Positions 12,099 to 23,829 of a stretch of DNA of 34,059 bases are shown piece by piece. Positions within the stretch are counted from its first letter, which is position 1; every line of letters starts with the position of its first letter. The stretch comes from Bacillota bacterium. GTDB lineage: Bacteria > Bacillota > SHA-98 > UBA4971. The stretch covers positions 1 through 34,059 of the forward strand of contig JAAZLO010000082.1 in the NCBI GenBank assembly GCA_012689375.1. The letters are read 5' to 3'. Under the pieces are notes generated by a model that saw only the letters and a list, made by a program, of their open reading frames with translations, had not been told where the DNA came from and made no database searches. The position numbers were made by a program, and so were the translations under genes.

Positions 12099-12833
12099 GT
12101 GAATTGTAAGATCCTTGATGGGCTTATCTCCTCCATAGAGGGGGATGCACCTGTAAGCAAAGTTTGTATCGGACCTTTTTGGACAGCTGTAAAAAGCAGG
12201 GGTTGTGGGTTGGCATCTACTCTATTTATCCACGAACACGGTGGACATTCCCCTGTGAGAGACTGTGGCATTCTGACGGAAAAGACCGGACTTGAACTTT
12301 GCTCGTATTGTAAATCATCCAGCATTCTCGAAGCCACAATCGGTATAGCAGCCATTAATTCAATGCTAGATATTGATGATGGGTGCCTCACTGAAATTAA
12401 TGCATCAGAAATTCTATTGGAAAAAGGTGCAGGGAAGAATGTGGCAATTGTTGGGCACTTCCCGTTTGTGCCCCGACTGCGGCAAGTGGCCGGGAATCTT
12501 TGGGTTATTGAAAAACGTCCCAAAGCCGGAGACCTACCTGAAGAAGCAGCAGAAGAAATGATTCCTAAGGCAGATATTATAGCCATTACCGGGTCTGCGT
12601 TAACTAACGGTACCATGGGCCATCTTTTAGAGCTTTGCCCAAAAGACAGTCTCGTAATGGTTCTTGGCCCATCGACTCCAATTTCTCCTGTTTGGTTTGA
12701 TTATGGTGTGGACTTAATTTCAGGGACTGTTGTGACTGATCCCGAAGTTGTTTTTAGGTTTGTTTCCCAAGGGACAATTTTCCGTCAATTAAGCAAACAT
12801 GGTGTAAGGCTTGTTACTATGTCCAGGAATTGA
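12099..12833 (+). CDS. DUF4213/DUF364 protein (putative heavy-metal chelation family)
   Basis: A 244-residue protein with the two-part architecture of this family. The N-terminal DUF4213 part includes 'VCIGPFWTAVKSRGCGLAST' (residues 22-41). The DUF364 Rossmann-like part includes 'NVAIVGHFPFVPRL', 'TGSALTNGTMGHLLEL' and 'VMVLGPSTPISPVWFDYGVD'. The family is frequent in anaerobes and is suspected of metal or metallocofactor handling, without a proven reaction. Several Cys residues (Cys37, Cys56, Cys68, Cys71) could bind metal. The GTG start follows GGAGAGGG. The next gene, 81 nt downstream on the same strand, is an iron-sulfur scaffold. Confidence 0.85.
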   Translation: MNCKILDGLISSIEGDAPVSKVCIGPFWTAVKSRGCGLASTLFIHEHGGHSPVRDCGILTEKTGLELCSYCKSSSILEATIGIAAINSMLDIDDGCLTEINASEILLEKGAGKNVAIVGHFPFVPRLRQVAGNLWVIEKRPKAGDLPEEAAEEMIPKADIIAITGSALTNGTMGHLLELCPKDSLVMVLGPSTPISPVWFDYGVDLISGTVVTDPEVVFRFVSQGTIFRQLSKHGVRLVTMSRN

Positions 12834-12914
12834 ATATAGGAATTAAATAAACTCAGTCTGCCAAAGGGGATGACTTAGTTTTATATAAGAGAACCAGAAA
12901 GAAGGAACTAATGC

Positions 12915-13331
12915 ATGGTCTATAATGAAAAAGTTTTGGAACATTTCTTCAACCCAAAAAACGTAGGTGAAATCAAGGACGCGGACGGAATTGGAACAAT
13001 CGGAGATCCTGAATGTGGTGATTGCCTGAAAGTTTACATTAAAGTTAAGGACAGACGAATTGATGATGTGAAATTTAAGGTTTACGGGTGCCCTGCCGCT
13101 ATCGGTACAGGCAGTATTACTACGGAACTTGCTAAGGGTAAACTTGTGGAAGAAGCCTACCAATTAGGAGAAAAGGATGTTATTCAGGCAATAGGCGGTC
13201 TTCCTGAACAAAAAATGCACTGTTCAGTATTGTGTCCGGCTGCACTCCGGCTGGCAATTCTTGATTATATTTGCAAACTTAAGGCAAAGAAGGCAAAGGA
13301 ATCCATACAGGAACAGGCGGGGAATCAATAG
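12915..13331 (+). CDS. Iron-sulfur cluster scaffold, IscU/NifU N-terminal type
   Basis: The 138-residue protein has the U-type scaffold fold signature 'HFFNPKNVGEI' and the three cluster-ligand Cys: Cys34 (or Cys37) in 'GDPECGDCLK', Cys59 in 'VYGCPAAIG', and Cys103 in 'KMHCSVL'. Extra Cys37 and Cys107 are typical of the clostridial NifU-like variants. The C-terminal NifU Nfu domain is absent, leaving a short Lys/Glu/Gln-rich tail. No cysteine desulfurase gene is next to it. It follows the DUF364 gene and may be cotranscribed. The ATG follows GAAGGA. Confidence 0.9.
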   Translation: MVYNEKVLEHFFNPKNVGEIKDADGIGTIGDPECGDCLKVYIKVKDRRIDDVKFKVYGCPAAIGTGSITTELAKGKLVEEAYQLGEKDVIQAIGGLPEQKMHCSVLCPAALRLAILDYICKLKAKKAKESIQEQAGNQ

Positions 13332-18531: not shown

Positions 18532-19842
18532 TCACCTCAGATTCTTAATCTTTCGGGCTTCTAAAAGCTCCCTGAACGCACCGAGTCTAGTTAAGGATTG
18601 CGCCTCTCCGCTATTTTTTATATCAACTCCGTCACCATCGAGGTTCAGGAAGGGAATCCCCTCTTTCTTTAGGTAGTCCGAAAGAACATAGGAAGCACCG
18701 TTATGCTGTCTGCACCCCCACTGGGCAAACTGTACAACACCATCTATTGAAAATTCCTGTACTATTTTACTGATTACTTTAAGCCTTCGCCTAGCCGGCC
18801 CCCACCCGAAATTAGACATGATTTTATTTGCAAGGCTTGTATAAGGATCCTGTGGATCTAAAACATCCCAGTGTAAATAACTGAATTCCTCAAAGGCTAC
18901 GGAAATCTGTGCCTCATTTTCCAGATAATCAAATAGTTTTGTACTATAGTATGGTCTTAAGTTTAACCATGCAAGCCTGAATTGTTCGTTTGGGATTGGG
19001 TAGTTACCTGTGCTTATAATATTTTCTGCATAATCGCGGAGGGACTTATAGAATTTCGGGAGCCACGGGCTTCCCCAAGACCAAAGAAACAATACCACAT
19101 AATTTAATGCTTCTGAACCCCGCCATGGCGATGGGGTGTTTTTGCGTAATTCACATAACTCGCGGTAGTAACTCAGGGCGGCATTGGAATTTGCCAAGGC
19201 TTCATCCATATATTCTTCAGATAAATCCGGGACTTCGCGCTTTAAATCCTTTACAACTATCTCCAGCTGTTTGCTTAGATACTTCAAAGATTGTTCAGAT
19301 TGCCCGTAAGGTACATCCAGCACATGAAATGGGCAGTTGTGGTAGCGGCTTATTTGAAATAAAGCCTGTTTACCCCCGTCGCAGAGTTGGGACGATACAA
19401 TTACAGCGGCGGGCTCAGGAGTAAGATTAATAACTGAAGCGCCTACACCTGCTCTATGGAAGCTGCAAAGATCTGGGGAATACCAAAGGGATTCACCTGC
19501 AGCAAGGCTTTCTCCTGCCAATTTATAGCTTGCTGCGAACCCAGCTGCGGCTTCTGGCAAAAAGGGTACTGCGCCAAGCCCGTAAACTAATTCATTAGGG
19601 ACAAATGCACTGGTAAATATAGAGGGTTTTTTCCCGAGGTACGCATTGCGAAAATCATTGGCAATGCACCTGATTGCATTAATTTGGTACGGTTTCCAAT
19701 CCCGCTTTTCCAAGTAGTCAATTGCAAGTTTTGCACCGCTGTGGACCCATCCTTTCCGGAGGAGGGTCCTTAAAAGTTTGATACGGCGGGATTCCCCGGC
19801 TAATCTGCGATTTAAAGATTCTGTCATGGCATCTGGAAGCAC
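18532..19842 (-). CDS. 2-hydroxyacyl-CoA dehydratase/benzoyl-CoA reductase-like subunit (HgdB family), 436 residues
   Basis: A member of the HGD-D family, whose subunits hold [4Fe-4S] clusters and receive electrons from the HgdC-type activator. Cys126 ('SPDLCSFHRAGVG'), Cys154 ('VSSQLCDGGKQAL') and Cys377 ('AQWGCRQHNGASYVL') occupy the positions of the usual cluster ligands. The C-terminal 'PFLNLDGDGVDIKNSGEAQS' corresponds to the conserved end of these subunits. The GTG start lies 2 nt after the stop codon of the previous gene, so the two are translationally coupled. The substrate cannot be assigned: no CoA-transferase or acyl-CoA dehydrogenase is adjacent. A double-cubane cluster protein (DCCP) function, which does not need CoA substrates, is another possibility. 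Confidence 0.88.
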   Translation of the reverse strand: MLPDAMTESLNRRLAGESRRIKLLRTLLRKGWVHSGAKLAIDYLEKRDWKPYQINAIRCIANDFRNAYLGKKPSIFTSAFVPNELVYGLGAVPFLPEAAAGFAASYKLAGESLAAGESLWYSPDLCSFHRAGVGASVINLTPEPAAVIVSSQLCDGGKQALFQISRYHNCPFHVLDVPYGQSEQSLKYLSKQLEIVVKDLKREVPDLSEEYMDEALANSNAALSYYRELCELRKNTPSPWRGSEALNYVVLFLWSWGSPWLPKFYKSLRDYAENIISTGNYPIPNEQFRLAWLNLRPYYSTKLFDYLENEAQISVAFEEFSYLHWDVLDPQDPYTSLANKIMSNFGWGPARRRLKVISKIVQEFSIDGVVQFAQWGCRQHNGASYVLSDYLKKEGIPFLNLDGDGVDIKNSGEAQSLTRLGAFRELLEARKIKNLR

Positions 19843-19844
19843 TG

Positions 19845-20921
19845 CTATCTACCTACCCTGAGCATGTACGTAGTTTCAAGCATTTCCTGGAAAGCTTCTA
19901 CCCGTGTTATGGCTTGTCCTGCTTTTCCTGATCCATACTGGCCTTCCAGAAAAAGCATGGGAAATCCGGCCGACGATTTTAAACCATGTCTTATTTCTAC
20001 GGAATCATAGTATGCCTGATCACAAAATTTTGGGGCGAAATATATAAGCCCTTGAATATCATAATCAGATGCAAGCTGTAAAAGACGGGAAACCCTAGTT
20101 TCCTTTTGAAACATTCTGGGGCAGGCCGGCTTATTAAGATAGGCTTCCGCAAGTACGTGAAAGGGATCATTATTATTTTCGCTGCAGATATTAAAATCGT
20201 AGGCTCTCAGTGATATGCAGGAATCAATAAAAGCTATATCGAGGCCTGCATTTTCAATACATTTTATAACAGACAAATCTAGAAGACAGGTCCCGCTGAT
20301 TCCTACAGGGATGCTAGGTCTGTCTTTGTTATCGCGGGGAGATTTTAGGGGTACTTGGTTTATTATTTCATCAATTTCTTGAATGAAAGATTCATTTCCC
20401 TGGAAATAAGGGGGTGCTGGGAGTTTGCTTATGTTTATGGCAAGCTGAGTTGCTTTGGCAGCGGATAGCTTTTTTTCAAACATTAAATTAAAAGTACGGG
20501 AAAGCCTTCGCCGGATTTCGTTCGTAAAATTGATTGTCACCATAAGTCTCCCGAGAAATTCAGATTTTGAAAGTGTTGTCATATCTAAAAACTTATGGCT
20601 AAGGTTTTCAAGCTCCTTTGCATAGAATGAGACAGCTTCAGGACTACCTATCAAAGGGACGTCCACATAGTAAACAGCCTCTGCCAAATTCCAGTAATCT
20701 AGTACATCATAGGTTCTGCGCATTGCATCACATGACCCTGCTACAACAACAATACTGTTATTTCCATACTGCCGGATAAATGCCCGGGCATAGGGGCAGA
20801 AATCTTGAGGGAGGTGTCCTTCCATTTCCGGAATTGGCCCTTCAAACAGATCTCTTGTTACAGGCATTCCCGCTGCCAGCGGTATTTCATATGGTATATA
20901 ACTACATGATAAACGAACCAT
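19845..20921 (-). CDS. 2-hydroxyacyl-CoA dehydratase-like subunit, 358 residues
   Basis: The second HGD-D-family subunit. Cys42 ('DFCPYARAF'), Cys64 ('VAGSCDAMRRTYDVL') and Cys300 ('YFAPKFCDQAYYDSVEIR') match the three-Cys cluster pattern. 'FLEGQYGSGKAGQAITRVEA' near the C-terminus parallels the conserved end of HgdA/BcrB-like proteins. It is shorter than the neighbouring 436-residue subunit, mainly at the N-terminus, as in heterodimeric members of the family. The ATG follows GAGGG and lies 51 nt after copA with no hairpin between, so copper-regulated cotranscription is plausible. Nothing in the window identifies the substrate. Confidence 0.87.
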   Translation of the reverse strand: MVRLSCSYIPYEIPLAAGMPVTRDLFEGPIPEMEGHLPQDFCPYARAFIRQYGNNSIVVVAGSCDAMRRTYDVLDYWNLAEAVYYVDVPLIGSPEAVSFYAKELENLSHKFLDMTTLSKSEFLGRLMVTINFTNEIRRRLSRTFNLMFEKKLSAAKATQLAINISKLPAPPYFQGNESFIQEIDEIINQVPLKSPRDNKDRPSIPVGISGTCLLDLSVIKCIENAGLDIAFIDSCISLRAYDFNICSENNNDPFHVLAEAYLNKPACPRMFQKETRVSRLLQLASDYDIQGLIYFAPKFCDQAYYDSVEIRHGLKSSAGFPMLFLEGQYGSGKAGQAITRVEAFQEMLETTYMLRVGR

Positions 20922-20972: not shown

Positions 20973-23429
20973 TTATTTTGTCCTTGCTTGTTTCATCGGA
21001 TTAAAACTACGTAATCTAAGTGAATTTGTGACTACGGACACTGATGAGAAGGACATGGCCGCACCTGCAATAACCGGAGATAAAAATCCCAGGGCTGCAA
21101 TGGGTATCCCTATGGTGTTATATATGAAAGCCCAGAACAGATTTTGGCGAATGATCCTTATCGTTTGGCGGCTTAACCTGATTGCGGCTGCAATATGCCT
21201 GAGATCTCCCCGAACCAGTGTAATATCAGACGCCTCAATTGCAATATCGGTCCCGGCTCCCATAGCAATACCTACATCTGCTGCGACTAAGGCGGGGGCA
21301 TCGTTAATTCCATCCCCGACCATGGCAACTACCCGTCCTTCACTACGGAGCCTTTCTATTTCCCTTGCCTTATCTTCAGGAAGTACTTCTGCCAGGATAT
21401 TATCAATCCCTGCCTGATTTGCAATATAATCGGCTGTACGTCGGTTATCACCGGTTAGCATTATGACTTCGATTCCAAGATCCTTCAGCGCAAGGACAGC
21501 ATCTTTCGATGTTTCTTTTAATATATCCGCAACGCCGATAATCCCGGTTACATTTCCATCCACCGAAAGGACCATGGCAGTTTGTCCTTGGGATTCAAGA
21601 ATCTCTAAATCACTTTCAGCATTAGCAGTGGATATATTTTTATCCTTCATAAGACGGATTGTACCCACCAATATCTCTTTACCTTCAATTTCCGCCTTTA
21701 TCCCTTTGCCGGGGATTGCCTGAAAATCTGAAGGTTCAGTTAAGCTAAGCCCTACGGCTTTTGCATGGTTGATGATGGCTGTCCCCAGAGGGTGTTCAGA
21801 GCGTAGTTCCGCTGAGGCAGCCAACCTTATTATTTCATGGGTTGCTTCTTTTTCATTGCTGTCGTGAAGGGAACTGACTGCAATTACATTGACAACTGCA
21901 GGCTCCCCTTTTGTTAAAGTCCCGGTTTTATCAAGGACAACAGTATCTATTTTATGGGCTCTTTCTAAATATTCCGCCCCCCTGATTAGAATGCCTGATT
22001 CTGCTCCTTTCCCAGTCCCCACCATAATGGCTGTAGGGGTGGCAAGCCCAAGTGAGCAGGGACAAGCTATTACAAGGACTGCTGTAAAAGCGATAATTGC
22101 CTGTCCCGGATCTTTAGCAATGATCAGCCATAAAACAAGAGTAACCAAAGCTGCTATAAGCACTGAAGGGACAAAGTAGCCTGCTACTACGTCGGCTATT
22201 CGTTGTATCGGGGCTTTTGACCCTTGTGCTTTTTCTACCATTTCAACTATTTGTGAAAGGACGGTATCCCGGCCTACTTTTGTAGCCTCGAATTTAAAGG
22301 TCCCGTATTTGTTTATAGTACCGCCTATTACTTTGGCGCCGGGTTCTTTTTCCACAGGTATGCTTTCACCTGTTAACATAGATTCATCCACCATAGATGT
22401 TCCCTCAATAATTGTGCCGTCTACAGGTATACGCTCTCCGGGTTGGACAATGATAGTGTCCCCTTGGACAACTTCGCTTGTATCTACTTGGACTTCAATC
22501 CCTTCCCGAATAATTCGAGTTTTTTGAGGTGTAAGTTGCATCAGACGCCTTATGGCCTCACCGGTTCTTCCTTTCGCACGGGCTTCGAAATAGCGGCCTA
22601 AGAGAACAAGGGTAATGATAACAGCGGATGATTCATAGTACACATGGCCCGGAGATATAAAGGTGTTGTAAAGGCTAAAAATATAGGCTGCAGAGGTGCC
22701 CATGGCTATAAGCGTATCCATGGTAGCTGTCTTAGTGCGAAATGCAGAAATTGCCCCCCGATAAAACTGGCGTCCCGGACCAAACTGGACAATTGTTGCC
22801 ATAACAAATTGGAAATATGAGCTCTCCAACCAGATCGGGAGATTAACCCCGAATAAATGAGAAAGCATCAATGATAAAAGAGGAATGGAGAATGCTGCGG
22901 AAAAAAGGAAGTTTGTGAGATGATTTCGAATTTCTTTCTCACGCCTGGCTCCTGCTGTTTCTCCCTCCTGCTCTGACTTCCCGGATTTATCCGTTTCTTT
23001 TGCTTCAAATCCTATGTTATTTACGGCTTGCATTATTTCAGAAGCCGAAATCTCATGAGGGAAATAGGTGACGACAGCCCGCTCGGTTGCAAGATTTACA
23101 ATTGCATCAGTAATGCCGGGTGTGTTTTTGAGCCCCTGTTCAACGCGGTGGACACATGAAGCACAATGCATACCGCCGATAGTCAGTTCTAACCTGTCGA
23201 GGACTACGCCGTACCCTAGCTCTTTAATGATTTTGGCCAGGGCAGGGGGCCGGATCCGGGTAGGATCATAGACTATTGTGGCCTTCTGTGTTGCCAGGTT
23301 TATATTTGCGGATAATACACCTTCAATGCTCTCCAGGACTTGATCAATCCTGGCGACACATGATGCACAACTCATTCCTGTAATTTCTAATACTAATTCT
23401 CTTTGTTTTTCATCAGTGTTTGATTGCAT
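20973..23429 (-). CDS. copA: Copper(I)-exporting P1B-type ATPase
   Basis: The 818-residue pump has two N-terminal heavy-metal-associated domains with C-x-x-C motifs (Cys21/Cys24 in 'GMSCASC' and Cys89/Cys92 in 'GMHCASC'). It also has the TGES-containing actuator region, the intramembrane '[13 protein letters not shown]', the phosphorylation motif D-K-T-G-T-L-T and '[10 protein letters not shown]'. The last helices carry 'YN' ('[11 protein letters not shown]') and 'MSFSSVSV', which define Cu(I) selectivity. It detoxifies copper by export through the cell membrane. It lies 18 nt after csoR and is expected to be derepressed by Cu(I). The ATG follows GGGGGTG. Confidence 0.97.
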
Positions 23430-23447: not shown

Positions 23448-23717
23448 TTATCGGATAAATTTTGTGAGGACTTCCATTAATTCATTTATAGCTTGTTCAC
23501 TGCGCTCTTCCTTTATTGCGCAAGTTACACAACCTTCTAAATGAGATTTTAAAATAGCCGTTCCGACTTTACCAAGAGCAGCCCTTGCAGCAACTATTTG
23601 GTTTAATATATCAATACAATATCTGTCTTCTTCAATCATTCGATCAATTCCCCGGACCTGACCTTCGATCCGGGCGAGACGTTTCTTTAAATCTTTCTTA
23701 TTGCGCCCTTCGTACAT
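23448..23717 (-). CDS. csoR: Copper-sensing repressor CsoR
   Basis: The 89-residue all-helical repressor shows the DUF156 signature 'LKKRLARIEGQVRGIDRMIE'. Cys34, His59 and Cys63 have exactly the x-Cys/His/Cys spacing (25 and 4) of Cu(I)-sensing CsoR rather than of nickel or sulfide sensors. The ATG at 23717 is preferred over a longer frame to 23780, because GGAGG lies 9 nt upstream and the family begins here. It heads the unit with copA, and an operator-like site overlaps its promoter at 23774-23790, so it probably represses its own operon until Cu(I) binds. Confidence 0.95.
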   Translation of the reverse strand: MYEGRNKKDLKKRLARIEGQVRGIDRMIEEDRYCIDILNQIVAARAALGKVGTAILKSHLEGCVTCAIKEERSEQAINELMEVLTKFIR

Positions 23718-23773
23718 TTCCAAAGGCCTCCTATTACATAGCGGATAAACAAGGTGTACCTCTTTTATATACG

Positions 23774-23829
23774 ATACCATGGTAGGGTATCCGTATATAA
23801 AGTATATTCCTTACTTACATGAAAGTCAA
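23774..23829 (-). promoter_or_regulatory. csoR-copA promoter with CsoR operator
   Basis: On the minus strand TTGACT (23829-23824) and TATACT (23806-23801) are separated by exactly 17 nt, a near-consensus housekeeping promoter. Ten bases past the -10 lies ATACCCTACCATGGTAT (23790-23774). Its ATACC-7nt-GGTAT symmetry and ATACCCTAC left half match the known Bacillus subtilis CsoR operator of copZA (ATACCCTACGGGGGTAT). The site covers the expected transcription start, consistent with repression by blocking polymerase. Confidence 0.85.

Follow-up and report, generated by a model that had tools for sequence, protein, structure and literature searches.

Two subunit genes and an activase gene lie together on the reverse strand of the window, the whole 34,059-nt stretch of DNA analysed here, which comes from an uncultured, anaerobic bacterium of the phylum Bacillota. 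The two subunits, of 358 and 436 aa, both match the HGD-D family PF06050 over their whole length, and the activase ORF follows the gene of the 436-aa subunit after about 10 bp. With an HGD-D fold, cluster cysteines and a BadF-type ATPase as activase, the module belongs to the BCR-I/HAD/DCCP superfamily. There is no other PF06050 pair in the genome (1.83 Mb, 96% complete). All six genomes available for the genus carry the pair, as does the sister genus, with identities to relatives of up to 62% for the 358-aa subunit and up to 73% for the 436-aa subunit; the conservation of an orthologous pair in relatives indicates a real gene module and not a chance arrangement. The N-O-activase module is real, complete and conserved, and it comes from an uncharacterised lineage. 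The original prediction had located both subunit ORFs correctly, and the cysteines and motifs that it named are present. It had also regarded the unequal subunit lengths as unusual, which they are not, given that BzdN and BzdO have 379 and 447 aa. The features of the locus are collected in Table 1.

Table 1. Genes, residues and neighbouring features of the module, with positions counted in the window.
Feature	Position	Strand	Remarks
N-like subunit, 358 aa	19845..20921	(-)	ATG start; PF06050, E 4e-54
Cys6 codon	20904..20906	(-)	aligned with BzdN Cys36
Cys42 codon	20796..20798	(-)	aligned with BzdN Cys73
Cys64 codon	20730..20732	(-)	aligned with BzdN Cys100
Cys235 codon	20217..20219	(-)	aligned with BzdN Cys263; lost in HadC and MbdN
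Cys267 codon	20121..20123	(-)	aligned with BzdN Cys293; lost in MbdN
Cys300 codon	20022..20024	(-)	aligned with BzdN Cys327
O-like subunit, 436 aa	18532..19842	(-)	GTG start; PF06050, E 1e-61
Glu97	19552..19554	(-)	invariant (48/48); profile-aligned with HadB Glu55
C126-S-F-H-R130	19453..19467	(-)	cluster motif; F128 at the position of BzdO Tyr97 (thioester contact)
Cys154 codon	19381..19383	(-)	aligned with BzdO Cys128
W292-L-N-L-R-P-Y-Y299	18946..18969	(-)	family-specific conserved segment at the substrate-pocket loop; corresponds to BzdO 271-278 with Gln274
Q374-W-G-C377-R-Q	18706..18723	(-)	motif; Cys377 aligned with BzdO Cys380
Activase, HgdC/HadI type, 263 aa	17731..18522	(-)	TIGR00241, PF01869
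Activase Cys129 and Cys168			candidate bridging-cluster ligands; ATPase fold
Copper P-type ATPase	20973-23429	(-)	by eye; directly upstream of the module, gap of about 50 bp
csoR-like regulator	23448-23780	(-)	by eye; precedes the copper P-type ATPase
F420 gamma-glutamyl-ligase-like protein, 391 aa	23936-25111	(-)	PF01996
DUF4213/DUF364 heavy-metal-chelation protein	12099-13331	(+)	beside a NifU-like scaffold protein

The activator had been taken for an HgdC-type protein, and this was confirmed by a score of 268 bits against TIGR00241 (cut-off 125) and by matches over its length to HadI (4eht, E 3e-65) and HgdC (1hux, E 7e-60) among the PDB sequences. Because it is encoded by one gene, the activase is probably a homodimer.

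The 358-aa subunit finds its best PDB sequence match, over the full length, in BzdN (8s02_B), which is also the top Foldseek match (TMq 0.80) of its AF2 model (pLDDT 91). The [8Fe-9S] double cubane of BzdN is held by C36, C73, C100, C263, C293 and C327 (PMC11971306), and in the alignment to BzdN of PDB 8s02 all six positions are Cys in the 358-aa subunit. These positions read CCCCCC in 56 of the 58 N-like family members and in 20 of 21 DCCPs, as against PCCACC in the HadC types and QCCFYC in MbdN. The three-cysteine pattern Cys42/64/300 described originally is thus present but incomplete as a ligand set, since six cysteines are conserved and C6, C235 and C267 had been overlooked. On these alignments, the 358-aa subunit is predicted to be a double-cubane [8Fe-9S] electron-storage subunit.

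For the 436-aa subunit, the best PDB sequence matches are BzdO and HadB, and its AF2 model (pLDDT 94.5) matches 8s02 with a Foldseek TMq of 0.78-0.79 and 3o3m with 0.79-0.80. The Cys126/154/377 pattern noted for this subunit was borne out as the set of catalytic-cluster ligands: the [4Fe-4S]-OH2 ligands C126, C154 and C377 are kept in 48 of 48 O-like family members, and the protein is predicted to be the catalytic [4Fe-4S]-OH2 subunit. In BzdO, Glu65 sits beside the Fe-bound water in an acid/base role (PMC11971306); judging from the spacing, Glu97 probably matches this residue as an acid/base near the Fe-OH2. A pairwise alignment with gaps had suggested that BzdO Glu65 is not conserved, but in the profile alignment E97 stands at HadB Glu55.

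Other positions of the active site differ. BzdO binds the thioester oxygen through Tyr97, Gln274 and Tyr298, with His131 and Glu65 at the cluster (PMC11971306), and from the residue set Glu65/His131/Tyr97/Gln274 only the Glu is kept in the 436-aa subunit, as E97. The Tyr97 position is Phe in 43 of 48 family members (F128 here), the Gln274 position is Leu or Ile in the O-like family (L295 here), and the His131 position is Ala or Gly (G157 here). Within the family, W292 and P297 are found in 48/48 members, with W292 differing in BzdO, MbdO and HadB. Trp325 (48/48) and Trp375 (46/48) lie at positions where MbdO, HadB and, where its sequence was seen, BzdO differ. The motifs A-G-S-C-D-A-M-R-R and Q-W-G-C-R-Q-H, whose surroundings had been called unusual, are both present, and WGCRQ is family-specific relative to BzdNO. 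An aromatic pocket that does not vary within the family makes it likely that the members act on one conserved substrate, and the exchanged residues suggest that it is probably other than benzoyl-CoA and other than 2-hydroxyacyl-CoA.

A scan of the genome collection detected at least 117 relatives, of which 80 were kept. Bacillota account for 53 of the 80, Moorella thermoacetica and Desulfallas are among those kept, and the others come from deltaproteobacterial groups, Chloroflexota, Actinomycetota, Armatimonadota and Spirochaetota. One O-subunit relative, 59% identical, lies on a contig filed under the archaeon Methanosuratincola (L061) and is probably a binning error from the bacterial family of the O-subunit. 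Swol_0412 of Syntrophomonas wolfei, a 47-kDa COG1775 protein seen in crotonate-grown cells (PMC3582634), may be a family member.

Against the NCBIfam equivalogs for DCCP, HadB/C, BzdN/O and BcrB, the subunits score far under the curated cut-offs, with 126 and 80 bits for NF040772 (DCCP; cut-off 350) and 74 and 67 bits for bzdN and bzdO (cut-offs 454 and 449). In two trees, the O-like family has the clade of BzdO, MbdO and HadB as its sister group and does not fall inside it, with support of 99% for the clade of known catalytic subunits and 92-99% for the O-like family; in the rooted drawings, the DCCPs branch off next. AU tests rejected the union of the O-like family with the HadB types (p=0.0012) and with BzdO (p=0.010), as well as that of the N-like family with the HadC types (p=1.6e-5). 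The union of the N-like family with BzdN was not rejected (p=0.64), and the separation of the two in the N-subunit tree is weak (support 0.58). HgdAB, FldBC, LcdAB and BcrBC sequences are not in these trees, which is the main gap in the family-placement test. The sub-cut-off scores, the sister position and the AU tests together support the proposal of an uncharacterised branch, and the phylogeny suggested as its check places the catalytic subunit outside the BzdO/MbdO/HadB clade in a tree without HgdAB, FldBC and LcdAB. Sequence, phylogeny and fold prediction show the anatomy of the cluster ligands and the placement of the family.

We examined the neighbours at the 80 loci by clustering them by similarity, with Pfam identification for a sample only. 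The activase adjoins the pair in 56 of the 71 loci with enough flank, and besides it no constant neighbour was found over the 80 loci. The other neighbours are specific to lineages (several were named by inspection): csoR/copA and a DUF3798 sugar-type ABC transporter in the genus, a GldA-type ABC transporter in the sister genus, engB/clpX/lon with bioY/birA in one group, and a LIV-type ABC transporter in another. In 7 of 7 genus genomes, the gene immediately upstream of the module encodes a copper-type P-ATPase, and from this copper-gene context the module may share a transcript with the csoR and copper ATPase genes in the genus. Of the promoter-like sites, the best one precedes csoR, but the signal is weak, such sites being fewer than expected by chance.

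Several further genes were seen around the module. In five genus relatives (L034-L038; L037:1978-7055), a convergent sugar-type ABC transporter adjoins the activase; it has two BPD_transp_2 permeases, a double ATPase and, where the contig reaches it, a DUF3798 binding protein. No DUF3798 transporter turned up in the genome of the window, but control genomes gave no match either, so that its absence is not firm. The 391-aa F420 gamma-glutamyl-ligase-like protein is conserved upstream of copA in the genus, and CofE models match it only in part. Elsewhere in the window, the heavy-metal-chelation protein and the NifU-like scaffold protein stand side by side (Table 1).

The usual partners, namely a CoA-transferase, an acyl-CoA dehydrogenase and an electron-transfer flavoprotein (ETF), had been described as absent. 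This holds near the module and, for the CoA-transferase, genome-wide: CoA_transf_3 (PF02515) and CoA_trans (PF01144) gave no match in the genome, which is 96% complete, so that an assembly gap is possible. For the other two it does not extend to the whole genome: ETF genes give four matches at two sites on other contigs, and one acyl-CoA dehydrogenase gene lies on another contig.

Taken together, the module is probably an ATP-dependent, double-cubane, two-electron reductase that works like BzdNO, part of an enzyme that opens benzene rings in the absence of oxygen, with an archerase-type activase. The six double-cubane cysteines of the N-like subunit and the three cluster cysteines of the O-like subunit speak for a BzdNO-like rather than an HGD-like architecture. 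The Aromatoleum enzyme (PDB 8s02, PMC11971306) is likewise a heterodimer with six double-cubane Cys in its N subunit, three [4Fe-4S] Cys and a catalytic Glu in its O subunit, and an ATP-dependent activase. We infer the electron path and the reductase activity from this homology. The activase dimer would take one electron from ferredoxin or flavodoxin and, with hydrolysis of about 2 ATP per electron, fire it into the N-like subunit, where the six-Cys [8Fe-9S] double cubane would store at least two low-potential electrons. These would then pass to the single [4Fe-4S]-OH2 cluster of the O-like subunit, at which the substrate would be reduced with Glu97 as a proton relay. Such a route from double cubane to [4Fe-4S]-OH2 has been proposed for BzdNO (PMC11971306). 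Two points run counter to the reductase reading: the N-like family is poorly separated from BzdN in the tree, and BzdO His131 is replaced by Ala/Gly. Moreover, the cluster type does not prove the reaction type, as MbdNO is a reductase without the double-cubane ligands, and a dehydratase with a double-cubane partner subunit can be imagined. The 3-methylbenzoyl-CoA reductase MbdONPQ (PDB 9g87, 9gai) resembles the module in its heterodimeric catalytic core and homologous activases, whereas in MbdN three of the six double-cubane positions are not Cys and MbdO falls in the BzdO/HadB clade.

By the tests applied here, the module is neither a benzoyl-CoA reductase, nor a hydroxyacyl-CoA dehydratase, nor a DCCP. 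It is unlikely, though still worth weighing, that the module is a DCCP-like reductase of small non-CoA molecules of the acetylene, azide or hydrazine type, with a possible function in housekeeping or detoxification. DCCP with DCCP-R (PDB 6eno, 7yyl) shares the double-cubane ligand set and an ATP-dependent activase, the module stands alone without catabolic genes, its neighbours in one group are the housekeeping genes engB, clpX and lon (named by sequence inspection), and the DCCPs branch next in the rooted drawings. However, both subunits of the homodimeric DCCP carry a double cubane (PMC11971306), whereas here the double cubane is kept in one subunit only and the 436-aa subunit retains just its three cluster Cys; the family-specific pocket segment, moreover, suggests a larger, dedicated substrate.

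The original prediction, an HGD-type heterodimer, corresponds to a true (R)-2-hydroxyacyl-CoA dehydratase (HGD/HAD) from a branch with a new substrate, in which one electron supplied by the activase would be recycled during water elimination via a ketyl radical. We regard this as improbable. The (R)-2-hydroxyisocaproyl-CoA dehydratase HadBC with HadI (PDB 3o3m, 4eht) does share the fold, the three catalytic Cys and an active-site Glu with the module; the nearest relatives of the activase are HadI and HgdC, HadB and BzdO fit the catalytic subunit about equally well on superposition, and the window also contains hutH and a serine dehydratase-like pair (by eye), which are amino-acid genes. Nevertheless, the full double-cubane ligand set is absent from the HAD partner subunits, HadC lacking two of the six Cys, BzdN is the best match of the N-like subunit, and both subunits fall in clades separate from their Had counterparts, as the AU tests on HadB and HadC show. 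The loss of the double cubane from the HAD partners makes dehydration less likely, as does the genome's lack of a class I or class III CoA-transferase, the partner of HadBC; across the 80 loci, no conserved amino-acid fermentation neighbours were recognised.

A BZD-type class I benzoyl-CoA reductase is very unlikely, even though BzdNO is the nearest structural and ligand match, the pocket residues are aromatic and a sister relation between the N subunit and BzdN is possible. The catalytic subunit lies in another clade, its union with BzdO being rejected; His131, Tyr97 and Gln274 of BzdO are all replaced, the WLNLRPYY and WGCRQ motifs are specific to the family, the bzdN/bzdO scores are low, and one activase gene stands in place of BzdPQ. 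Recurrent neighbours of an aromatic-CoA pathway were not recognised at the 80 loci, with Pfam run on a sample only.

Least credible of all is a lipid-modifying reductase that would work together with a radical-SAM enzyme, like the ester-to-ether reductases PlsA/Ger. PlsA is a HAD-family enzyme (PMC12838417) whose kind shares the superfamily and ATPase activase domains with the module, and 10 of 80 loci, belonging to three groups, have a radical-SAM/SPASM gene no more than a few genes away from the pair, with an ortholog in the genome of the window. That gene, however, occurs in 46 of 61 genomes whether or not they have the pair, and it has no detected tetraether synthase match in the PDB. The reading is further weakened because the genome has a separate PlsA/Ger-type protein, such proteins being single multidomain chains of about 1400 aa with DUF2229 and no detectable similarity to the pair. 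As a functional partner, the radical-SAM/SPASM gene was set aside, since many members of the phylum have it whether the module is present or not, and it is a weak lead only. Its ortholog (L179:2929-4311 (-), genome contig C33) has an ArsR-like regulator gene upstream. The PlsA/Ger-type protein itself (L181:4335-8642 (-), genome contig C106) has 1435 aa, with two BcrAD ATPase stretches and DUF2229, and suggests plasmalogen or ether-lipid synthesis in the organism.

The BzdNO-like, double-cubane reductase that we favour could tentatively be carried one step further, although we would not lean towards this extension: the family may form a third functional class of heterodimeric radical Fe-S enzymes, next to the benzoyl-CoA reductases and the 2-hydroxyacyl-CoA dehydratases, as a widespread double-cubane reductase that performs a reduction at very low potential, perhaps on a non-CoA substrate, in the core metabolism of many anaerobes. 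As of 2025, double-cubane [8Fe-9S] clusters had been described in two proteins only, DCCP and BzdN (PMC11971306). If the assignment is true, the family adds a third, widely distributed and heterodimeric double-cubane class with its own conserved pocket, and it may be an intermediate in the split of the superfamily into dehydratases, aryl reductases and double-cubane proteins. Hosts in culture, such as Moorella thermoacetica and Desulfallas, open the substrate question to knockout and reconstitution. Apart from this family, we also observed five heterodimers (L168, L169, L171, L173 and L174) in which the catalytic side groups with the HAD/BCR types and the partner keeps the six double-cubane Cys; on the basis of these cysteines, they may represent a further set of double-cubane enzymes.
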